Source of the DNA: a virus
Strand: one strand, 5' to 3'
Virus record (IMG/VR): IMGVR_UViG_3300027554_000007
Coordinates: 1 to 47,422 of that record
Length of the DNA stretch: 47,422 nt
Positions within the stretch are counted from its first letter, which is position 1. Each line of letters opens with the position of its first letter. This document shows, one piece after another, positions 3,236-22,944 of this stretch. Under the pieces are notes generated by a model, which was given only the letters and a program-made list of their open reading frames with translations, was not told where the DNA came from and made no database searches. The position numbers and the translations under genes were made by a program.

Positions 3236-3473
3236 TGTCTTTCCGTCTTCAACCCAATTGGGCGCGTCGTTCCTTCGCGCGTCCTGACCAAGGGGGCAGC
3301 GCCCCGCTCCGTTCAATCTGCGGCTTTCCAAAGAGCCTGTCATTTTGTCCTCGCTTTGTTTGTCGTTTCGCACCTGCAGACCTAGCGGCTTGGTCGAATT
3401 TTTCCAACTGGAAAGCCCGCTGCGCTTTCCATGCAACGCAATTGATTGCGTCCAACCGTGAAAGCTGCACCGC
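3236..3473. promoter_or_regulatory. Intergenic control region with three dyads
   Basis: No well-supported gene lies here. Three dyads follow one another: TTTCCA-AC-TGGAAA (3401-3414), GGAAAGC-N7-GCTTTCC (3410-3430) and ACGCAAT-TG-ATTGCGT (3436-3451), plus a smaller GGGGC-AGC-GCCCC at 3293-3305. The cluster ends 23 bases before the next gene. It could hold operators for the Cro-like or CII-like proteins or an attenuator. An 80-codon frame (3235-3477) spans the region and overlaps both neighbours by a few bases, but its Trp/Cys/Arg/Phe-rich composition and the dyads argue against it. Confidence 0.45.
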
Positions 3474-4939: not shown

Positions 4940-6169
4940 ATGGCGGGCCGTTTCGACATTGATGCAATCCGGCAGCTGAACCCGCCGCGCAGCGTGTTTT
5001 CCAAACTCGGGATTCCGCACATGGTCCGCGGCGACCGGATCAAGGCCGACTGTCCCGGATGCGGCAAGTCGAACAAATTCGATTTCAGCATTTCGAAACA
5101 GGTTTATTCCTGTTTCGGCGGCGGGTGCGAATTCGGTCATGGCCGCGCGGGCATCATCGATTTTGTGATGGATGTTTTGAACCGCGACTTTGTCGAGGCC
5201 TGCAAATTCCTCGGCGGCGAAAAGGACCTGACGGACGCCGAAAAACAAGACGCCGCCAAACGCCAACGGATGCGCGAGGCCGCCGTCAAGAAAGCGGAAA
5301 ACATCCGCCTGCGCCGCACCCGAAAACACATGGAAAAGATTTTGGACCAATGCCAACCGGGCGAAGGTTCGTTGGCCCAAACCTATCTGGAAACCCGCGG
5401 TCACGCCCGTGGCATCAAAGCCTTGGGCTGGCCAACCGATTTGATGTTTCACCCCGGACTGGAAGCCTTTGTCGGCGACGGCGATGACAAATGCGCGGCG
5501 GGCACGTTTCCGGCGCTGATTTCAAAGGGACGAAACGCGAGCGGCAAACTGGTCCTGTTGCACCGCACTTACTTGCAGCCCGCGCCAGACGGCGGAATGA
5601 TGAAGGCCGCGCCCGTCCTGCCCGATCATCTGGCAGACGATTGGAACGCCAAACAAATGGTCGGGGTTTTGTCGCGCTGCGATTCAGGCGTGTTTTTGGG
5701 CGCGACGCCTGACGTCACCCATGACCCGACCCTGCCCGTCTTGGTCGCGGAAGGGATTGAATCGACCTTGGCCCTCGCAACGGCGGGCGTGTCCGGCGCA
5801 TTTTATGCGGCGCTGTCTTTGGACCGCGTCATCGGTCGGCCTTCCTCTGCGCGGCGCGGAATGGAAGGCTGGCGACCGCCGGAAGCGGGCCGCCCAATCA
5901 TCATCGCCGCCGACAATGATTTGTCGCCCGTCCCGCCCGCTTTCCCCTGCGGTCTGGACCGGGCGCAAAGCCTGTTCAGCAAAGCCAAATCGCGTCTGGC
6001 CGAATTGGATTTCGCGGTCGAGGTCGTCTTCCCGCCCGCAGGCTGCGACCCCGAGGATTGGCTGACCCATCGCCCCGAAAATCAATCCGTCCCGGCGCCC
6101 CCTGATTCCGCCGCAGACGTCGAAATCACCGTCATCAAAACAGACAAAACAGAAAGCGAGGCCGCATGA
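4940..6169 (+). CDS. DNA primase with CHC2 zinc finger and Toprim domain
   Basis: This 409-residue protein should synthesise RNA primers for phage replication. An N-terminal zinc finger is visible as C38-x2-C41 (DCPGCG) and C58-x4-C63 (SCFGGGC). A charged linker (about 100-135) leads to a Toprim domain with the conserved glutamate in VAEGIES (about residue 274) and the DxD-type motif in IIAADND (about 321-327). The C-terminal region (CDPEDWL) matches the end of phage Toprim primases. The separate helicase is encoded downstream at 9442-11457. The next gene starts within its stop codon (ATGA). Confidence 0.88.
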   Translation: MAGRFDIDAIRQLNPPRSVFSKLGIPHMVRGDRIKADCPGCGKSNKFDFSISKQVYSCFGGGCEFGHGRAGIIDFVMDVLNRDFVEACKFLGGEKDLTDAEKQDAAKRQRMREAAVKKAENIRLRRTRKHMEKILDQCQPGEGSLAQTYLETRGHARGIKALGWPTDLMFHPGLEAFVGDGDDKCAAGTFPALISKGRNASGKLVLLHRTYLQPAPDGGMMKAAPVLPDHLADDWNAKQMVGVLSRCDSGVFLGATPDVTHDPTLPVLVAEGIESTLALATAGVSGAFYAALSLDRVIGRPSSARRGMEGWRPPEAGRPIIIAADNDLSPVPPAFPCGLDRAQSLFSKAKSRLAELDFAVEVVFPPAGCDPEDWLTHRPENQSVPAPPDSAADVEITVIKTDKTESEAA

Positions 6170-8825: not shown

Positions 8826-9445
8826 CCTTGCAACCCGCTGCCCAACCTTGGCCAAACCCCGTCCCCGCTGCCGCGCCCGCGCCTGTCCCGCCGACACCGC
8901 CTGCTGCGCCCTCGGGCCAGGACATCGCCAAAGAACATGCCGCTTTTCGCGCGCGGATTGTGCGGTCAACCGGCGAACCCGTCGCGCGGTATTTTGAAAT
9001 CAATCGCGACCTGATCATCGACATGCACCACGCCAATGTCGGTCGCAGTGAAATGGCGCACATTTTGGGCATCGGGCGCATCGGCCAATTCGAACGGGCG
9101 CTGAATGTCACAAAGCTGACGCGGTCAGCCTTGGGTCTGCCGAAGCTGCCCGGCAATGGTCCCGCCGCGCGGCGTCATGAGAAAATGCGAATTTGGACAC
9201 CGTTCGAAGATTTCCACGTTCGGCGCGGGTTCACCTGCGGCATCCTCGTGGAGTCCATCGGCGCAATCATTTCGCGCTCCGGTGACGAAGTCTTGGCCCG
9301 CGCGCGGGATCTGAAACTGGGCGAAGATGGGTCGGGCCTTTGGACGTTCCAGCCCTGCGCCCGCCTGCGCGGAATCGCGCAGCGCGCCTTTGATGCCGCC
9401 CATCAAATCATCGGATCGCATGTGTCCGAGTTCCGGCAGGAATGA
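8822..9445 (+). CDS. Putative DNA-binding protein upstream of helicase
   Basis: The 207-residue product has a Pro/Ala-rich N-terminal tail (about 1-32) and then two segments that read like helix-turn-helix motifs: MHHANVGRSEMAHILGIGR and RRGFTCGILVESIGAIISRS. It sits directly before the SF3 helicase, with which it overlaps by ATGA. By context it might recognise the origin or load the helicase; no family match is claimed. I start at ATG 8822 (overlap with the previous stop) rather than the in-frame 8807 codon. Confidence 0.55.
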   Translation: MTLQPAAQPWPNPVPAAAPAPVPPTPPAAPSGQDIAKEHAAFRARIVRSTGEPVARYFEINRDLIIDMHHANVGRSEMAHILGIGRIGQFERALNVTKLTRSALGLPKLPGNGPAARRHEKMRIWTPFEDFHVRRGFTCGILVESIGAIISRSGDEVLARARDLKLGEDGSGLWTFQPCARLRGIAQRAFDAAHQIIGSHVSEFRQE

Positions 9446-11457
9446 CCGTGACAGACACGCCGGAGATTTCAACCCCAGACCCCGACCCGTCCGCGACCGA
9501 CGACGCGGACGTTCTGAATGCGGGCGCGATGCGCGGCGCCGTCGCCGCTGCCCTTGGCCGTCTTCACGCGGGCAAGGACTCGGCGCGTGCGGAACCCGAA
9601 GGACCTTTGGGCGACACCCCGACCCCGGTCGGGGCTGACGCAGGCGATGACGACGAAGACAAACCTGTTTTTCTTTGGGATGTCATTCCGTTCAAAGACC
9701 TGACCGAAGATCAAAAACGCGCGCGGTTGGATGTGAATGATCAGGGCATGGCCTTGCGCCTGTCCCATTATTCGGACGGAGAAATTCTTTACTGTCCGGC
9801 CCTTGGCTTTCTGGTCTGGGACGGTCACCGATTCAAAGCCTGCGAAGAAAAAGACACCTTCGCCCGCCGCCGCGTCATGGCCCTCGCCGCGCCGCTGCGC
9901 AAAATAGAATATCCGGCGTTGATGACGGCGGGCCTGACGGAATCAGAAAACCTTTTGTCCGAAGTCGATCGCGACGGGGCGTTCAAGGCAGCGCTGAAAC
10001 GCGTCAGCAAATTCTATTCGTCGACGACGCAGCTGGGCAATGCCGCCAAACAAAAATCCATCTTGGACGTCGCGTCAAAGATGCCCGAATTTTATGTCGA
10101 TTTCGACGTGCTGGATGCGGCCCACGGCGATTTGAACACGCCGTCGGGGGTCTTGCCCCTCCCGCTGTCTTCGCCGTCCCGTGAAGACGACGTTGACGTG
10201 ACAGACGAAGACGTTCGCCGCCATGACATTCAGCGCGCGTTCGAAAGCCTGCGTCCGAGACCGTCGATCACCGATGACGCCGTCACGCGCCTGACGGCGG
10301 GCACCTTCGACGTCGCCGCAATTGCCCGCGATGATGACCTGGCCCCGAACTGGCGCAAACATTTGATGGCCGTTTTGCCCGACCCAAAAATGCGCAAAGC
10401 GTTTCAACGCGTCTGCGGGTCCAACCTGGTTAGCTTTAACCCGAAAAACGAATGGTTCATCTGGCGCGGTCCGGGCGGCGACGGCAAGTCTGTCACCCTG
10501 CGCGCGGTGATGAATGCGATCGCGGATTTCGGCGTCATGGCGAATGTCAAAACCTTCATGACCGACAATTCCAGCGGCGGCGACAAAGCCCGCAATGATT
10601 TGATGGCACTGGCGGGCGGCACCCGCATGGTCGCCATTGCCGAGCCCAGCCCGACGCAGGAATTGGACGGCGGTTTGATCAAGGCCCTGACCGGCGGCGA
10701 AGAACAATCCAATCGCGGAAATTACGGCGCGCAGACAACGTGGACGCCGCAATGGAAATTGCACATGGTCTGCAATACGCTGCCCAAAATCCGCACGAAT
10801 GACGACGGGTTCTGGCGACGGCCGATTTTCATCCCCTTCACCCGCCAATTCGCAGCCGCCGAAATCGACACCAACATCGAAGCCAAATTGGCTGCCGAGA
10901 AAGACGGGATTCTGGCGTGGATGATCGAAGGGTTTTTCGATTGGCGGTCACGCGATTTCAGCTTTGACGTCCCGCAGGAAAGCCTCGACATGAAAGCCCA
11001 TTTCCGCGGCGAAGCTGACATCATGGCCAGCTGGATGAATGAACGCATTTTGTGGAAAGGGTGGTGGAACCGCAAAGCCCTGAACGAAAACAAAACAAGC
11101 GCCGAGGTCTGGCGGCAAATTCAATCAGAGGAAATTGGCGACCTGACCTGGGCGCAATCTAATTTCTGGACCCATGACGCTGCCGCCTCGCCTGCCCCGC
11201 GCTATCGCCCCGTCGAAATTTATCAGGATTTCGAACGCTGGTGCGAGGCCAATGCTTATGACGCGTGGCAACAGCGAACATTCAGTCAAAAGTTCCCGCA
11301 GATCGCGCGCGACAAAGGCGCGATGAATAAAAAATCCAATGGCGAATGGCATTGGCGCGGCTTCGATTTTGTGACGGGCGGCATCCTGCCCGAACCGGAA
11401 ACCCCATCCACCCAAGACGCCGAAGACGCCGCCGCCTGGCGCGGAGGGTTCGCCTGA
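9442..11457 (+). CDS. D5/P4-type SF3 replicative helicase
   Basis: This 671-residue protein should unwind DNA at the phage origin. A disordered acidic N-terminus (1-75) is followed by a D5-N-like region (about 290-335). The superfamily 3 helicase core has Walker A GPGGDGKS at about 343-350, a Walker B region around MVAIAEP, and the SF3 sensor CNTLPKI followed by the arginine-rich DDGFWRRP. The C-terminal WCEANAYDAWQQRTFSQKF resembles the winged-helix end of P4 alpha/D5 proteins. Together with the separate Toprim primase it forms the replication machinery. The next reading frame starts inside its stop codon (TGATG). Confidence 0.88.
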   Translation: MTVTDTPEISTPDPDPSATDDADVLNAGAMRGAVAAALGRLHAGKDSARAEPEGPLGDTPTPVGADAGDDDEDKPVFLWDVIPFKDLTEDQKRARLDVNDQGMALRLSHYSDGEILYCPALGFLVWDGHRFKACEEKDTFARRRVMALAAPLRKIEYPALMTAGLTESENLLSEVDRDGAFKAALKRVSKFYSSTTQLGNAAKQKSILDVASKMPEFYVDFDVLDAAHGDLNTPSGVLPLPLSSPSREDDVDVTDEDVRRHDIQRAFESLRPRPSITDDAVTRLTAGTFDVAAIARDDDLAPNWRKHLMAVLPDPKMRKAFQRVCGSNLVSFNPKNEWFIWRGPGGDGKSVTLRAVMNAIADFGVMANVKTFMTDNSSGGDKARNDLMALAGGTRMVAIAEPSPTQELDGGLIKALTGGEEQSNRGNYGAQTTWTPQWKLHMVCNTLPKIRTNDDGFWRRPIFIPFTRQFAAAEIDTNIEAKLAAEKDGILAWMIEGFFDWRSRDFSFDVPQESLDMKAHFRGEADIMASWMNERILWKGWWNRKALNENKTSAEVWRQIQSEEIGDLTWAQSNFWTHDAAASPAPRYRPVEIYQDFERWCEANAYDAWQQRTFSQKFPQIARDKGAMNKKSNGEWHWRGFDFVTGGILPEPETPSTQDAEDAAAWRGGFA

Positions 11458-11504
11458 TGACCGTCATCAAACATCCCACCCCAACCGAAAGCCCTTTGTT
11501 ATGA
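11457..11504 (+). CDS. 15-codon bridging mini-ORF
   Basis: A tiny frame, MTVIKHPTPTESPLL, begins in a TGATG overlap with the helicase stop and ends in an ATGA overlap with the ParB-like gene. It may be a real leader peptide or simply a ribosome bridge that keeps translation coupled over an otherwise 43-base gap. Evidence is the exact coupling at both ends only. Confidence 0.35.
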   Translation: MTVIKHPTPTESPLL

Positions 11505-12328
11505 AAAAGCCATCCGACACCCTTGTTCCTTTGTCCTCCGATTTTGACGGCGAAGTCCCGGTCATTGATTTGGGACTGCCAAAGCTTGACCTTGTTCCCA
11601 TTGCGTGTCTTCGGATTGATGAACAATATCAACGCAACATTTCCCGCCGGTCCGCCAAAATAATCCGGGTCATGATGTCGGATTTTCATTGGTCGCGTTT
11701 TGGAATTGTGACCGTCACCCCGGTCGACGATGGGACCTTTGCAATCCTGGACGGCCAGCATCGTGCCACGGCATTGAAGGCATTGGGCGCGGAGTTCTGC
11801 CCTTGCCTAATCACCTCGCAGGATGACGTCCAAGCGCAGGCCCGCGATTTTATGGGCATCAACACCGCCCGCACCGCCCTGCACGCCTCCCAAGCTTACA
11901 AAGCACGGCTGACAGCGGCTGAACCCATCATCGTCTCTCTGGACGCTGCCATGACAAAGGCGGGATTGCGGCTTCTGACATACCAGAAGACCGCAGACGC
12001 CTTTAAGGTCGGAGATTGTATCGCCTGGGGTAAAACGGAAAAACTCTTTCGGCAGGACCGCGCGTTATTTAGTCGTGTTTGCAAAATTCTGGCGGCGGCG
12101 AAACTGACCCCGGTGAAAGCCGCGCAACTGCAATGTGTTTGGGATCTTCTGACCGACCCCCTTTATTCTCAAAATCTTGATGACGCCGCCTTGGCTTCCG
12201 TCATTGGTTCAAAACTGCATACGGATTGGTTGTCAGACGCCCGTCGTCGGCAGTCTGTCACCGGCGACCCGACGGTGACGTGTCTGACACATGTCTACTG
12301 GGTCGCCATGAAGGCAGCGCATCCGTGA
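11501..12328 (+). CDS. ParB/Srx-fold DGQHR protein
   Basis: The N-terminal domain of this 275-residue protein carries IDEQYQRNISRRSAKII and DGQHRATALKALG (about residues 86-98), the signature of ParB/sulfiredoxin-fold proteins with a DGQHR box. Family members include partition proteins, nucleases and DndB-type modification proteins. The rest is helical and unassigned. No ParA partner is nearby, so plasmid-like partition is not supported; a role in replication or DNA modification is more in keeping with its neighbours. Coupled at both ends (ATGA, GTGA). Confidence 0.65.
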   Translation: MKKPSDTLVPLSSDFDGEVPVIDLGLPKLDLVPIACLRIDEQYQRNISRRSAKIIRVMMSDFHWSRFGIVTVTPVDDGTFAILDGQHRATALKALGAEFCPCLITSQDDVQAQARDFMGINTARTALHASQAYKARLTAAEPIIVSLDAAMTKAGLRLLTYQKTADAFKVGDCIAWGKTEKLFRQDRALFSRVCKILAAAKLTPVKAAQLQCVWDLLTDPLYSQNLDDAALASVIGSKLHTDWLSDARRRQSVTGDPTVTCLTHVYWVAMKAAHP

Positions 12329-17332: not shown

Positions 17333-17592
17333 GCGCAGCGCTCGCCGATGCCGCGCGCCACATGGCCGAGGGCTGCACCCGGTGCGGGGCGTCCAGGCTT
17401 GTGGCGGCGCATACCGTGCGGCGTCTGACCAAAGGCGAGACACATTCGGCGCGGGCGTCCTGTCCGCGGTGCGGACCGGTCTGGGCGCTGTTAGACTGCA
17501 GTCGGCCCGACCCTCGGGCCCGTCACAACCCATCCATGTCCGGCGCGGCGGGCAAATCTTGCGCGGCGACCCTCGACCTTTGGGAGGCTTGA
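17329..17592 (+). CDS. Zinc-ribbon protein, 87 aa
   Basis: CTRCG (about 16-20) and CPRCG (about 45-49) give a classical zinc ribbon. The start lies in an ATGA overlap with the winged-helix gene. It may bind nucleic acid or regulate late transcription; position only. Confidence 0.55.
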   Translation: MSAALADAARHMAEGCTRCGASRLVAAHTVRRLTKGETHSARASCPRCGPVWALLDCSRPDPRARHNPSMSGAAGKSCAATLDLWEA

Positions 17593-17594
17593 AC

Positions 17595-17999
17595 ATGACC
17601 GCCAAGCGTCCCGAAGGCCCGTTGCGTCGTCCCCTTCCCCCGTCATTTCGCCGGATTGGCTTGCGGTGGTATGATCCTAGGGTTTGGCGTGGATATTTCC
17701 GGCGGCAGCAGCGGCGCGCGGAAAATAGACGATTGCAGCGCGCGGCGCATGAAAGGCTGCGATTCATCGGAACGGTCGACTTTTATTTCACAGACGAAAA
17801 AGGCGCGCGGACGTCAACTTTTTACGCGGACTTTTATGCGGCGCGGTCGGGTTTGCGCCATGTTTCCCTGCGCGGATTTTCAGTGAAATCAGAGAAACAT
17901 CTGACCCATAGTTATTGGTCGACCATTTTGAAGTTTAAAAGCGGTGACGGCGACATCAACAGCTGGCGCCAGCACATCATCCGCATGGCGGCGTTGTGA
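17595..17999 (+). CDS. Basic protein, 134 aa
   Basis: The N-terminal half is rich in Arg (PLRRPLPPSFRRIGLRW, RRQQRRAENRRLQRAAHERL) and the second half reads as beta strands (FIGTVDFYFTDEKG, STFYADFYAAR). No family is recognised. I take ATG 17595, three bases after the preceding stop; the frame upstream to 17322 is a shadow of the zinc-ribbon gene. Confidence 0.5.
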   Translation: MTAKRPEGPLRRPLPPSFRRIGLRWYDPRVWRGYFRRQQRRAENRRLQRAAHERLRFIGTVDFYFTDEKGARTSTFYADFYAARSGLRHVSLRGFSVKSEKHLTHSYWSTILKFKSGDGDINSWRQHIIRMAAL

Positions 18000-18025
18000 C
18001 GGCCAGACCAAATTGTTCGCCTGAT

Positions 18026-18054
18026 TTGACACGCCTTGCGTGTGGACTTAGGCC
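18026..18054 (+). promoter_or_regulatory. Possible promoter with embedded hairpin
   Basis: A perfect TTGACA at 18026-18031 is overlapped by a hairpin ACACGC-CTT-GCGTGT (18029-18043). The -10 region at a 17-base spacing (TAGGCC) is poor, so promoter activity is uncertain. It precedes the zinc-ribbon membrane protein gene. Confidence 0.25.
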
Positions 18055-18096
18055 TGCGGTTGGCGGGATCTTCCGCTGTTTTTGCAGGCTGACCCC

Positions 18097-18384
18097 ATGA
18101 CCGAGCCAACCCCGCCGACCAACGGCCCCCAATTAAAAATCATTCCCAAGCCGACGCAGCTGCCGCGGTTGATGGATTGTCCGTCCTGCAAAACGCATGT
18201 GTCGCGGGCGGCGCATTTCTGTCCAACCTGCGGCGAGCCATTCCGCAGCGGCAATGCGCTGCGATCGCGCGCGTCCGGCATTGGCGTTGGCGGCGTGATG
18301 TTCGGCGTGTTTCTAGGCGGGTTTGTCCTGCCTGGCATCCTGATTGCGGCTTGGATATTTTTGGGCCTTGGCGGCGTGTTTTAG
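18097..18384 (+). CDS. Zinc-ribbon membrane protein, 95 aa
   Basis: An N-terminal zinc ribbon (CPSCKTHVSRAAHFCPTCG, about 28-46) is followed by a hydrophobic C-terminal region of one long or two short membrane segments (GVGGVMFGVFLGGFVLPGILIAAWIFLGLGG). It would sit in the inner membrane with the ribbon in the cytoplasm. Function unknown; a superinfection or host-takeover role is possible. I prefer ATG 18097 over the in-frame 18082 codon because MTEP is the usual start style here, but either could be used. Confidence 0.55.
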   Translation: MTEPTPPTNGPQLKIIPKPTQLPRLMDCPSCKTHVSRAAHFCPTCGEPFRSGNALRSRASGIGVGGVMFGVFLGGFVLPGILIAAWIFLGLGGVF

Positions 18385-18495
18385 GGCCAACGCCTCCGCC
18401 TTTCCCCCACCTTCCCCGCCGCCGTTCCAGGCGGGGCATGACCGTGATCTGATGACGTTCAAACGTCACACCCAATCCCCTTGGCACCGCCCATC

Positions 18496-18521
18496 AAAGG
18501 CGCGCGCAGCGCGTCCTTTTT
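18496..18521 (+). terminator. Rho-independent terminator of the early operon
   Basis: AAAGGCGCGC-GCA-GCGCG(T)CCTTT forms a 10-bp stem with one bulged T, followed directly by a T-run. It lies about 110 bases after the last early gene and would end early transcription. Confidence 0.6.
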
Positions 18522-18717
18522 CCCTTCCCTGTCCTTAAAATCCAGACCCCCGCGCGATGTGCGGATGCGGGCGGCGGATTTTCGCCTGCGTTGACCGTGA
18601 CCGCGTCACCGTCATCTTTCCCGCCGTCATCCGACGCTTTCCCCCTGCCCCGTGCTTTGCTTTTCGGGGAGGCAGGGCAGGCCTTGGGGTCGAAAAATGG
18701 ACAAAAATGGACAAAAA

Positions 18718-19075
18718 GGGTCATGGCCTCGCGTTTAGGGTCATGCTCGGTTTTGGCATGACCCTCTTCGGGTGCGGGGGATGCTGTTGAATTCGCACGG
18801 GTTTTTCAATGTCAACATTTTTTTAGGGTCATGGTCCAAGGTCAGCCCAAGTTTCGTTCAGATATTTTTCGTGCGGGCTCCGTTGACGTGACGGCGGTCC
18901 GGTCAAAGCGGCATTTGTTTTTTTCTGGAAAAATCTTTGAAATACCTTGGACCATGACCCTTGACACGGTTTTTTTAGGGTTCTTTTTTAATGAAAGTAA
19001 ATAAAAACAAAGGGTTAGAAACAGGGTCATGGTCCCCAGAAAAACAGGGTCATGGTGTTTTGACCATGACCCTGT
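18718..19075. repeat. GGGTCATG repeat cluster (8 copies)
   Basis: Five forward copies begin at 18718, 18738, 18826, 19024 and 19047, and three reverse copies lie at 18757-18764, 18953-18960 and 19065-19072. They build a 10-bp hairpin (18737-18765), an 18-bp perfect inverted repeat 101 bases apart (18825-18842 and 18944-18961) and a 13-bp hairpin with a 6-base loop (19044-19075). Several copies extend to AGGGTCATGGTCC. Arrays like this are typical of initiator or regulator binding sites. Confidence 0.8.
18961..18990 (+). promoter_or_regulatory. Possible promoter for the pre-terminase gene
   Basis: TTGACA at 18961-18966 directly follows the reverse arm of the 18-bp inverted repeat. An 18-base T-rich spacer leads to TTTTTA (18985-18990), the same -10-like hexamer seen in the int promoter. 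The region is AT-rich, so chance matches are likely. Confidence 0.3.
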
Positions 19076-19088
19076 CGGATACCTCGCA

Positions 19089-19790
19089 ATGAAGGCGGTC
19101 TCGGCGATCAACGTTGCGTTCGGATTGCACCGGATTGGGGTCGCGTTCACGCTTGGGCTGGACCGCGTCGACGGCGAAACTGTCAGCGCTTGGAAGCGGC
19201 GGCGCTCGGCACGGCGGGCGTCGTTGCGCAAAATTTCCGGCGCGGTGCTGTCGGATCAACGCGCGGATGAAATCTGGGACAAGACGCTGCGGTCGATGTC
19301 ATTGCAATCGGTCCCGACCGGACATCGCGCGACGAAGTCTGCGAAGGTCGCGCCGTTCACGCGATTGGGCCGCGCGGTCCGCCTGTCCGGTGAATTGCCC
19401 GCGGGCGTTCGGCAGCTGCACGCCAAAGGCATGTTGACAGACCGCGAAGTCGGGTTCGCCTCACGGTTTCGGGCAGACCATGACTTGGCCTATTATTCCG
19501 GCGCGGGAATGACAGTGAAATATGACGCCGTCGGCGGCGGGTCGGGCATGGCAGATGGGGTCGCCTCCGCTCGCGGGGCGGTGATGGATGCGCGGGATCG
19601 GTTGCGGCGCGCGGAAGCTGGCATGACTGCGGGATGTTGGGACGTGCTGAACAAGATGGTCGTGATGGATATTGCGCAGGTCAACGTCGGCGGCGTCGTG
19701 GATCGCTATCGCGGTGACAAAGCGCGGCGATCTGCGGCGGGAATGCTGTTGATGGAGGCGCTGGGTGCGCTTGGCGAAATTTATTGTTGA
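19089..19790 (+). CDS. Putative regulator upstream of terminase (DUF6456-like)
   Basis: This 233-residue protein has a basic centre and a C-terminal region (FRADHDLAYYSG...GCWDVLNKMVVMDIAQ...RYRGDKARRSAAGMLLMEALGALGEIY) that reminds me of DUF6456-type proteins found next to phage packaging genes. Such proteins look like DNA-binding regulators, but I cannot confirm the match. I start at ATG 19089; the upstream in-frame codon at 19029 would translate the repeat hairpins. No good ribosome binding site is visible, and the 13-bp hairpin ends 13 bases before the start, so translation could be controlled by structure. It may act on the adjacent GGGTCATG array. Confidence 0.5.
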   Translation: MKAVSAINVAFGLHRIGVAFTLGLDRVDGETVSAWKRRRSARRASLRKISGAVLSDQRADEIWDKTLRSMSLQSVPTGHRATKSAKVAPFTRLGRAVRLSGELPAGVRQLHAKGMLTDREVGFASRFRADHDLAYYSGAGMTVKYDAVGGGSGMADGVASARGAVMDARDRLRRAEAGMTAGCWDVLNKMVVMDIAQVNVGGVVDRYRGDKARRSAAGMLLMEALGALGEIYC

Positions 19791-20005
19791 CGGGTGGTTC
19801 CAACTTCGCATAGCCAAACAGGTATTCCAGACAATTGCGCCTCAAAGGCCTCGCGGGTCCCCCCTGCGGGAAAAATCGTATACGGTTGGCCTTTGGCATT
19901 TTTTTTCTGTGTGCCGACGATTTTCAAAAAGGGGTGTCTGAAAACTCCCTTTAATCGTCACCCCAAACACCCTTTAGGGTTTCCCCCGCTTCGGCGGGTC
20001 TTACG
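19791..20005. other. Intergenic region before terminase, possible cos region
   Basis: No gene. It holds a CGTATACG palindrome (19877-19884), imperfect inverted repeats around AAGGGGTGT and ACACCCTTT (about 19938-19975), and a UUCG-type hairpin CCCGC-TTCG-GCGGG (19985-19998) ending seven bases before the next start. GpA-type terminases cut at cos sites usually found just upstream of the small subunit gene, so this is the likely place, but I cannot define a nick site. Confidence 0.35.
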
Positions 20006-20800
20006 ATGCAAGACAAGAAAACCGATATCACGTCCGACTTTATGACGATCACCGCCTGCGCGAAGCTATTGTCGGCGCAGGGTGACCAGACGTCGTCGCA
20101 GAACCTGAATCGATATTGCAAGCGCCATGGCCTGATCGAAGACACGCCTGGACGTTTCCTGATGGTTTCCCCGGCCCGCGTCGCCGATCACCGGGATAGC
20201 TTTTCCCGCGAAGTGATGAAGGGCGAACACCTCAAATTCAAGTCCGCGTCCAAATCCAAATCCAAATCCAAAAAGCCCGCTGCCAAAACCAAGTCCAAAC
20301 CAAAGCTGGCGGCTGTCCCCGCCTTCGCGGCCAAATCCGCCGTCACCCCCGTCACCCCCGTCACCGATCTGGACCGCGCCCGGACGGCGAAGGCCGAGCG
20401 CGAGGAAGCGCAGGCGGACAAGGCGCGACTCGAGTTGTTCAAAGAAACCCGCGACCTGGTCGCCACGTCTGAAATGGAAGTTCTGATCGGGCTGTTGATG
20501 ACGATGTTGAAAGAAGCCCTTTTCGGCGTGAACCTGTCGGACGACACCGAAGCCATCCTCGCGGTTAACAACCTCGGCGACGATCGCAAGAAGCCAACCC
20601 AAGCCATCCTTAAATCCCGACGCCGCGGCATGATGCAGCAAATTTCCGATCTGGCCGAACGCGAAATGGCGCGCCTCGACCCGCATCATTCCGGCGGGTT
20701 CCGCGCCCGTCTGGCTGACATCATCGCCAAAGTTCAATCCTTGCGCGACGAAGAATTCGACGCCGTCTTGAACCCGAAGTCCGAAGGGCGTCCCGCCTAA
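20006..20800 (+). CDS. Terminase small subunit (Nu1-like)
   Basis: The 264-residue protein should bind cos DNA and present it to the large subunit. An N-terminal DNA-binding region (MTITACAKLLSAQGDQTSSQNLNRYCKRHGLIE) resembles the Nu1-type winged helix. A Lys/Ser repeat linker (about 78-98) follows, then a long helical region with RARTAKAEREEAQADKARLELFKETRDLV, a phrase typical of phage small terminase subunits. The coding DNA of the linker contains the hexamer TCCAAA repeated in tandem (about 20248-20272). The gene ends two bases before the large subunit start. Confidence 0.8.
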   Translation: MQDKKTDITSDFMTITACAKLLSAQGDQTSSQNLNRYCKRHGLIEDTPGRFLMVSPARVADHRDSFSREVMKGEHLKFKSASKSKSKSKKPAAKTKSKPKLAAVPAFAAKSAVTPVTPVTDLDRARTAKAEREEAQADKARLELFKETRDLVATSEMEVLIGLLMTMLKEALFGVNLSDDTEAILAVNNLGDDRKKPTQAILKSRRRGMMQQISDLAEREMARLDPHHSGGFRARLADIIAKVQSLRDEEFDAVLNPKSEGRPA

Positions 20801-20802
20801 AC

Positions 20803-22944
20803 ATGTTCGCCCTTGTCCCCGGATTGAAGTCGGCCATCATGGCTGGCCTGTCCGCTGTTGCCATTTCCGCCGAGCCTGTTCCGGAACGCAGCGTCGCCGA
20901 TTGGGCCGATCAAGATCGCATCGTCTCGCGCATCGAATCGAACAAGCCCGGCCCTTGGTCAAACGACCGATTCCCCGTCGCCGTTGAAATCATGGAAGCG
21001 TGTTCGCTGTCCGACCCATCCGTCATCATTCCCATTCGGGGATCGGCGCAGTCGATCAAATCCGAGATCGCAAAGAACACGATCGGTTCATTCATCCAGG
21101 ACAATCCGCGCGGAATTCTGGTCATCCTGCCGTCCAATGAAGAACTGACCAAATACGAACGGACAAAGCTAGACCCGATGCTCCGCGCCTGTCCGGGTCT
21201 GGCCCGCCGCGTTCACGGCATCGGCAACACGGCCAGCAAGAAAAAGACGACGGTGAAGCTGAAAGAATTCCGCGACGGCACCATCACCCTGACGACGGCG
21301 GGGTCATCCAAAGGCCTGCAGATGATCACCGTTGGCCTGATCGTTTTCGAGGAAATCGCCGAAGCGCCTGCCGACACGGATGGGCGCGGTCACGCCCTGG
21401 ACCAAGCGATCGAACGGGGCACGCAATATGAGGGCGAACTGAAAGTCATCGTCCCATCCACGCCCGGAATGGCAGGCGAGACCGAAGACGGGAAACCGCT
21501 TTGCAAGATCACCGAACTTTTCCAAGACGGCGATCAGCGTTGGATTTTCTGGAAATGTCCGCATTGCGCCGACCACTTCCGGATGCGTTTTCATCACATG
21601 GCCGAAACCGAAGGCCGCGCTGTCATGTTCGCGCCGTGTTGCGGGACGCAGATTGAACATTCCGAAAAACGCGCGATGAACCAGACCCCGCGCCTTGGCG
21701 GTGATTGCCGTTTCGTTCCCTGTTTCAAATCCAAAAACCCAGCCAACCAAGTCCCATGGAAAATTGGCGCAGATGACAAAGTCATGGAAGACGTCATCGC
21801 CGCCGAGGATTTCGACGCCGCCGTCACGCGCGACACCGAAGGCCGAGACAAAAGCTTTCACATCTGGCGCGGTCAATCGCCCTTTTCCAGCTGGTCCGCG
21901 ATCTGGAAAAAATGGATCAAGGTGAAAGACGACCCCATCGCGCTGAAACCGTTTTATCAACAATACCTTGGCGAGCCGTTCGAACCGGCTTTGGACAAAC
22001 CAAAACATGAAGCCATCTTTGAAATGCGCGGCGGGGCCCCTGATGCAAAGACCCGCCCCATCCGCCGCGGGTTCATCCCGCCTTGGGCCGGATTTGTCGT
22101 CATGGTCGCCGACTTGCAAGGCGACCGCATCGAATGGGCGGCCAAGGCTTATGGTCCCAACGGAATGATCGCGACGATCGACCATGGCATCATCGATCAC
22201 GCGCCGTTCACGCCCGAAGCCTGGACCGAACTGCGCCGGACGTTCAACCGCGAATGGCCCTCGACCCATCTGCGTCCGCAGCGCGCGGTCAAAATGGGCG
22301 TCGACACGGGCGGCCACAACACCCAAGACGCCTACCGCTTCATCCTCGGAAATCCGGATGTCCACGGCATCAAAGGCATGACCGGCCCGCAGGCCCAGCA
22401 TGAACCCTTGTTCCAGGCGTCCCGCAAAGGCGGCAAATTGAAGGGCCTGCGCAAGCGCACCGAACAACGCGTGCCGCTGACATTGCTGAACACGCACCAA
22501 TTGAAAAAAGTCGTGTTCTTTGGCCTGCAAAATGCGCTGCGCTCGCACGCCGAAGGTCAGCTGCAGTCGGGCGTCAATTTCTTCTATCACGAGGAAATCG
22601 ACAGCGGCTTCGCCAAACAATTGGTCGCCGAGAATTTCATCAAAGACGACATCAAACGCAAAGAAGAATGGGTCCGCATCGCCAGTCGCCCGAATGAGCA
22701 ACTGGACTTGGAAGTCTACGGTTACGCGCTCGCCCTCATGTATGGCCTGAACCGGATGACCGAATCCGATTGGACCGCGCTGTTCACGCGCGAAGCCATC
22801 GACCCGACCGAGATCGACCTGACACCGCTTGAAAAGCTGGCGCGCGTCCAATCCGAACCGGAAACGCCTGACCGTCCGGTACGTCCTGATCAACGCCCGT
22901 CCTGGATGAAAAAGCTGGCCAATTATCCGGGGAACCAAAGCTGA
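20803..22944 (+). CDS. Terminase large subunit (GpA family)
   Basis: The 713-residue protein should be the ATP-driven packaging motor and cos nuclease. The ATPase half shows a GpA-type P-loop variant around RGSAQSIKSE (about 82-91) and Walker B VGLIVFEEIAEAP (about 176-188). A zinc-binding insert, CPHC...CC (about 253-285), is typical of this family. The nuclease half contains the acidic sites around FVVMVADLQGDRIEWA and KMGVDTGG. The length fits the family. It overlaps the gpW-like gene by one base. Confidence 0.9.
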   Translation: MFALVPGLKSAIMAGLSAVAISAEPVPERSVADWADQDRIVSRIESNKPGPWSNDRFPVAVEIMEACSLSDPSVIIPIRGSAQSIKSEIAKNTIGSFIQDNPRGILVILPSNEELTKYERTKLDPMLRACPGLARRVHGIGNTASKKKTTVKLKEFRDGTITLTTAGSSKGLQMITVGLIVFEEIAEAPADTDGRGHALDQAIERGTQYEGELKVIVPSTPGMAGETEDGKPLCKITELFQDGDQRWIFWKCPHCADHFRMRFHHMAETEGRAVMFAPCCGTQIEHSEKRAMNQTPRLGGDCRFVPCFKSKNPANQVPWKIGADDKVMEDVIAAEDFDAAVTRDTEGRDKSFHIWRGQSPFSSWSAIWKKWIKVKDDPIALKPFYQQYLGEPFEPALDKPKHEAIFEMRGGAPDAKTRPIRRGFIPPWAGFVVMVADLQGDRIEWAAKAYGPNGMIATIDHGIIDHAPFTPEAWTELRRTFNREWPSTHLRPQRAVKMGVDTGGHNTQDAYRFILGNPDVHGIKGMTGPQAQHEPLFQASRKGGKLKGLRKRTEQRVPLTLLNTHQLKKVVFFGLQNALRSHAEGQLQSGVNFFYHEEIDSGFAKQLVAENFIKDDIKRKEEWVRIASRPNEQLDLEVYGYALALMYGLNRMTESDWTALFTREAIDPTEIDLTPLEKLARVQSEPETPDRPVRPDQRPSWMKKLANYPGNQS

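Follow-up and report, generated by a model that had tools for sequence, protein, structure and literature searches.

The window, the whole stretch of 47,422 nucleotides analysed here, is an IMG/VR virus record with the layout of a temperate phage. Its early side encodes an integrase, a CI-like repressor, a CII-like activator, a primase and an SF3 primase-helicase. A ParB-like protein is encoded between the helicase and a noncoding gap, and DNA methyltransferases and a dNMP phosphatase are encoded as well. On the packaging side, the gap is followed by genes for a 233-aa protein, a probable small terminase subunit (TerS), a gpA-type large terminase subunit (TerL), a head-tail adaptor, a portal and a protease, and a long run of late ORFs lies beyond these head genes. 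No convincing gene was found within 18385-19088, and the gene order around this gap bears out the view of an earlier, sequence-only reading that a gene-free site divides the replication genes from the packaging genes. The features considered are as follows.

2172-2873: CI-like repressor
4940..6169, plus strand: DNA primase-like protein of the replication module (PHROG 510, E=5e-26)
9442..11457, plus strand: SF3 (D5-like) primase-helicase, 671 aa, proposed initiator (PHROG 1156, E=5e-74; D5_N, E=6e-6)
11501-12328: ParB-like protein (PHROG 1033)
18385..19088, no strand: noncoding gap of 704 bp with the proposed origin, between replication/accessory genes and packaging genes
18718..18764, no strand: box group A (forward, forward, reverse), with the 10-bp hairpin
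18825..18842, plus strand: box group B, a single forward box that forms the left arm of the 18-bp repeat
18944..18961, minus strand: box group C, a single reverse box that forms the right arm of the 18-bp repeat
18964..19020, no strand: AT-rich patch between groups C and D, proposed melting site (best 40-mer 82% A+T)
19023..19075, no strand: box group D (forward, forward, reverse), with the 13-bp hairpin
19089..19790, plus strand: 233-aa gene, starting 17 bp past the array (DUF6456 match below threshold)
20006..20800, plus strand: probable small terminase subunit, by position and appearance, without a family match
20803..22944, plus strand: large terminase subunit, gpA type (PHROG 15, E=1e-133; GpA_ATPase, GpA_nuclease)

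The gap harbors an array of eight boxes, five forward and three reverse, each of which (8/8) reads AGGGTCATG. The box core GGGTCATG starts at 18718, 18738, 18826, 19024 and 19047 on the plus strand and at 18757, 18953 and 19065 on the minus strand. The boxes are embedded in a 10-bp hairpin (stem 18737-18746/18756-18765), an 18-bp perfect inverted repeat (arms 18825-18842/18944-18961, with 101 bases between) and a 13-bp hairpin with a 6-base loop (stem 19044-19056/19063-19075), and a T/A-rich stretch is present whose best 40-mer reaches 82% A+T, against 41% across the window. These elements had all been described by the sequence-only reading; the T/A-rich stretch is real and the repeats proved exact. 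A whole-window scan for bidirectional 8-mer clusters gave a score of 8 for the array and 3 for the next best site. The best such cluster in Markov simulations of the window scored 3-4 and never above 4, and across 5000 simulated versions of the gap the box 8-mer never exceeded two copies. Were translation to start at an in-frame ATG at 19029, the 19089 gene would overlap the last boxes. No clear switch in GC skew was seen at the array. An Rfam match to mir-166 at 18820-18966 was dismissed as chance (E=0.33; 19 bits against a gathering score of 60). Tandem ATGGACAAAA units at 18691-18717 abut the first box.

The array box AGGGTCATG has no copy elsewhere in the window, and AGGGTCATGG is confined to the array window-wide. 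Ten further copies of the core GGGTCATG exist, nine of which read C-ATG-ACC-C on the minus strand and mostly coincide with gene starts; a leading A is present in all eight array boxes and in none of these ten copies. The reverse complement of the core, CATGACCC, lies at window positions 3473, 4564, 5720, 6958, 8420, 12596, 16004, 16503 and 23231. These nine sites are mostly ATG ACC C.. starts, the phage favouring Met-Thr starts. They were rejected as extra boxes because their flanks differ from those of the array boxes, and thus look coincidental.

We performed searches for sister phages at several levels. Viral contigs yielded no close relatives in single-protein scans with the 19089 product, TerS, TerL and the helicase, genome contigs yielded none for the 19089 product, and a distant DNA search in phages returned nothing. 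Exact box patterns in viral and genome contigs gave mostly chance pairs or unrelated repeats, except in L069 and L072, and these searches found no other phage with an array of the window's box sequence. The case for an origin thus rests on layout. L069 and L072 are related marine-type contigs with arrays upstream of their terminase genes, and L072 also encodes an SF3 helicase (PHROG 1156). Their arrays (1244-1642 and 5001-5392, respectively) are composed of TTGTCCACA/TGACCCACA, near the DnaA box in sequence. The occurrence of GGGTCATG in them was rejected as the same box; it is probably coincidental, the 8-mer spanning two of these 9-bp repeats. The L069/L072 array is of the same kind as that of the window, despite the different repeats.

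Distant annotated relatives of the phage share the gene order helicase, gap, gene of ~210-250 aa, terS and terL. The corresponding gap of Nostoc phage Nsp-JY21 contains a strong array built from another box, AGGGAGGAT; that of roseophage R4C contains a degenerate array, and that of Synechococcus phage MinM1, whose helicase is only a weak match, a weak one. No array was seen in the corresponding gap of the TerL relatives phi2LM21 and phiAP1, and arrays were absent or weak by the same scan in RcCronus, BPP-1 and Samy. The Nsp-JY21 record (PP438413.1, locus L073) and that of Synechococcus phage Sc-Yong805-1 (OP858991.1) gave identical TerL and helicase match figures; they were deposited for different cyanobacterial hosts, and a companion bacterium may be the true host. 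Conservation of the repeats in related phages had been expected from the sequence alone. The box sequence was not conserved, whereas the presence of an array, its layout and its place were. As boxes are phage-specific while layout and place are kept, non-conservation of the repeats is a poor argument against such an element.

A survey of 80 IMG/VR viral loci, chosen by helicase similarity only (helicase alignment), was carried out with a fixed criterion for an array, namely five or more copies of one 8-mer within 400 bp, with both strands represented. Arrays were detected in 30 of the 80 helicase loci and in none of 160 simulated loci; the other 50 fall below the cut-off, several with 3-4 copies directly past the helicase stop. 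Twenty-three arrays lie in the 61.5 kb around helicase 3' ends and seven in the 1130 kb elsewhere, a density just downstream of the helicase about 60 times that of the remainder. In most loci the array lies 0-90 bp past the helicase gene. Terminase types vary among the loci, and relatives of the primase-like 4940..6169 product are found in many of the helicase loci. Control loci contained one array in 310 kb (L008), which looks like a collagen-like coding repeat and was set aside. Helicase, array and TerL occur in this order in 18 of 18 loci with a TerL found (15 of the 80 survey loci, the window, Nsp-JY21 and L072), the TerL queries coming from the window and its relatives, so that loci with other terminases were missed. 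The array lies within ~500 bp of the helicase in 14 of these 18 and is displaced in the other four, by 2.4 kb in L072, 3.7 kb in L148, 4.3 kb in L115 and 7.3 kb downstream in the window. Bidirectional arrays are also present 5-7 kb upstream of the helicase in L136 (4273-4614, 11 copies of CGCCCTAA) and L132 (5897-6068, 6 copies of CGTTCCAG).

The internal layout of the arrays is shared as well. The most AT-rich 40-mer lies at a median of 0.77 of the array length, as it does in the window (0.77), and the AT peak falls in the right half of the array in 24 of 29 loci (p=5e-4). Under one clustering rule, exactly four box groups were found in 14 loci besides the window. The window has gaps of 88/127/92 bp between group centres, compared with 92/126/93 in Nsp-JY21, 92/134/93 in L082 and 104/115/93 in L085; the window and Nsp-JY21 thus agree within 4 bp at all three. 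Relative to the AT peak, the groups lie at -274 to -235, -166, -39 and +32 to +73 in the window, and at -271 to -241, -175 to -157, -49 to -31 and +36 to +66 in Nsp-JY21. When eight boxes were placed uniformly at random, 0.17% of trials came within 5 bp of at least one of the 14 loci; this figure is indicative only, because the clustering rule was picked, and the four-group layout noticed, after seeing the data. The window reads forward-forward-reverse in group A, forward in B, reverse in C, then the AT patch, and forward-forward-reverse in D. The same orientation run order, again with the AT patch separating C from D, is found in L094, L105 and L124, which have one box in common, unlike that of the window. 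Nsp-JY21 has the window's group positions, but a single direction within each group. Nested hairpins and a long inverted repeat are therefore what the four-group design and its run order give rise to.

We compared box similarity with protein similarity across 29 array loci, which are not phylogenetically independent of one another. Box similarity correlates with that of the helicase C-terminus (r 0.56), with a partial r of 0.47 when the helicase core is held constant (p=0.0002) and an r of 0.48 when only pairs whose cores are less than 0.5 similar are considered. The association with the C-terminus persists after correction for the core, the N-terminus and the post-array gene, while none of these three keeps any association when the C-terminus is taken into account: the value is 0.00 for the core given the C-terminus, and 0.014 (p=0.38, not significant) for the downstream gene given C-terminus and core. 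Joint inheritance of a neighbouring C-terminus and array could mimic such covariation and is a genuine confounder. Two pairs of loci argue against linkage as the full explanation: L122 and L153 have one common box with arrays 1.65 kb and 21 bp from the helicase, and L115 and L148 have similar boxes with both arrays displaced. The C-terminus of the window's helicase has a similarity of at most 0.11 to all others, so the covariation is no test of the window's own box.

By sequence and by fold, the whole helicase matches solved SF3 primase-helicases, and the best Foldseek matches of its model were ASFV PrimPol and mpox E5. Residues 590-643 of the AlphaFold2 model form a helix-helix-strand-strand arrangement with a pLDDT of ~90. 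In the model this C-terminal part (about residues 590-643) is a winged helix, which we propose as the box-binding domain. Among the candidate binders of the sequence-only reading, the 19089 and 8822 products are probably wrong, being without relatives beside other arrays, and the ParB-like protein is not supported, its relatives occurring in only four of the loci compared (L080, L081, L083 and L086), all on the helicase side. The covariation likewise speaks against the 19089 product as reader of the box. The candidate that fits is the SF3 primase-helicase (9442-11457), which that reading had not included.

Several known replication systems resemble this arrangement. The alpha protein of phage P4 is a fused primase-helicase that acts on short boxes in both orientations, and P4 replication needs two separate sites, ori and crr. 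The likeness, by description, is that of a primase-helicase on bidirectional short boxes; in contrast to the ori and crr of P4, one array was found here. In Streptococcus thermophilus phages, origins adjoin similar helicases. The putative origin arrays of Nsp-JY21, MinM1 and R4C likewise consist of short boxes on both strands, located in the gap that precedes the late genes, but differ from that of the window in box sequence and in adjoining the helicase. Alpha and its ori are mentioned in a study of the origins of phage-inducible chromosomal islands (PICIs), in which two iteron sets surround an AT-rich region 3' of rep, as tested by plasmid maintenance (PMC6092414). SaPI Rep and SCCmec Cch2 each use the C-terminal domain to bind iterons that closely follow the gene encoding the protein (PMC7581432). 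PICI and SaPI origins thus combine short iteron sets flanking an AT-rich region with a helicase initiator that has a C-terminal DNA-binding domain (PMC6092414, PMC7581432). Both features have counterparts here, with five boxes to the left and three to the right of the 82% A+T patch, and an SF3/D5-type helicase with a C-terminal winged helix (the domain by prediction). The PICI/SaPI origin lies directly 3' of the initiator gene, a position to which most related phage loci conform, whereas the window's array is 7.3 kb away. The window also differs in being a full tailed phage with capsid and terminase genes and in having four opposed box groups; its own terminase, head-tail adaptor, portal and head protease genes led us to reject its identification as a PICI. 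For SCCmec Cch2, binding of the helicase C-terminal domain to short repeats directly downstream has been shown biochemically (PMC7581432), but those repeats are three 5-nt iterons within a 23-bp direct repeat, in a staphylococcal cassette and not a phage. No description of this origin design in tailed phages was found in the largely open-access literature searched.

The position of the array directly upstream of the late genes would also suit a control region, in which the boxes serve as operator or loading sites for a regulator of the packaging and structural operon. The 19089 product scores 21.1 bits against DUF6456 (cut-off 26.3), a weak match from which it may be a distant GafZ-like regulator; within the control set, DUF6456 matched only in Caulobacter, where GafY and GafZ bind the GTA late promoter with IHF (PMC11150451). 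This product is the positional counterpart of the post-array gene in other phages, where an unrelated gene of ~160-300 aa occupies the slot (NusG-like in MinM1), and the slot is a possible home of late-transcription regulators. However, the arrays follow the helicase gene and not the late genes, no residual link ties the box to the downstream gene (0.014, p=0.38), and relatives of the 19089 product do not occur beside other arrays. Promoter-like sites in 17500-20100 were limited to two weak ones, each on the minus strand. We therefore regard a role in late-gene control as unlikely. Recognition of the boxes by the small terminase subunit, as cosB- or pac-like sites, would agree with the location of the array 0.9 kb upstream of the probable terS and the gpA-type terL. 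Lambda-type cosB also consists of repeated sites, with a bend between them. Yet the arrays track the helicase while terminase types differ between loci. The genome ends of the syntenic R4C, with their 14-bp cohesive end, are located upstream of terS (PMC6836515) and ~1.5 kb from that phage's own box array, which makes a packaging site very improbable.

The sequence-only reading had named an iteron-type origin, a centromere-like site and a master operator, and comparison with other phages gives good support to the first of these. A ParB-like protein and a CI-like repressor are indeed encoded in the window, but the genes scanned did not reveal a ParA, an integrase is present, the few ParB-like relatives were noted above, and AGGGTCATG is absent near the repressor gene; a partition site or repressor operator is thus hardly to be expected. 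The ParB-like protein is perhaps a nuclease instead of a partition protein, no ParA having been found alongside it.

The array, its layout, its position, its association with the SF3 helicase and the covariation were observed or computed here. We estimate at roughly 80% the probability that the array is the replication origin of the phage, with the C-terminal winged helix of the helicase as its putative binder. Initiation would begin with binding of each AGGGTCATG box by this winged helix, followed by assembly of oligomers on the opposed box groups. The AT patch would then melt and the helicase would load onto the single strands, after which the phage primase would lay primers and the host replisome would copy the DNA. 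Since 7.3 kb with other genes separates this origin from the helicase gene, the initiator would act at a distance.

To our knowledge, most replication origins of temperate phages are unmapped outside the lambda, P2 and P4 models. We lean slightly towards the view that a large class of tailed phages has a common origin design, with opposed groups of phage-specific boxes, a melting patch near the downstream end, and specificity arising from the fast-changing C-terminal domain of the SF3 helicase. If so, the box would be predictable from the helicase sequence, and origins could lie kilobases from their initiator, as in the window. Because the design is found by layout and not by sequence, it offers candidate origins for dozens of phages at once, and it names the initiator and the box-reading domain, both of which are testable. 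The placement of the origin at the edge of the packaging module is also relevant to the exchange of replication modules between phages.
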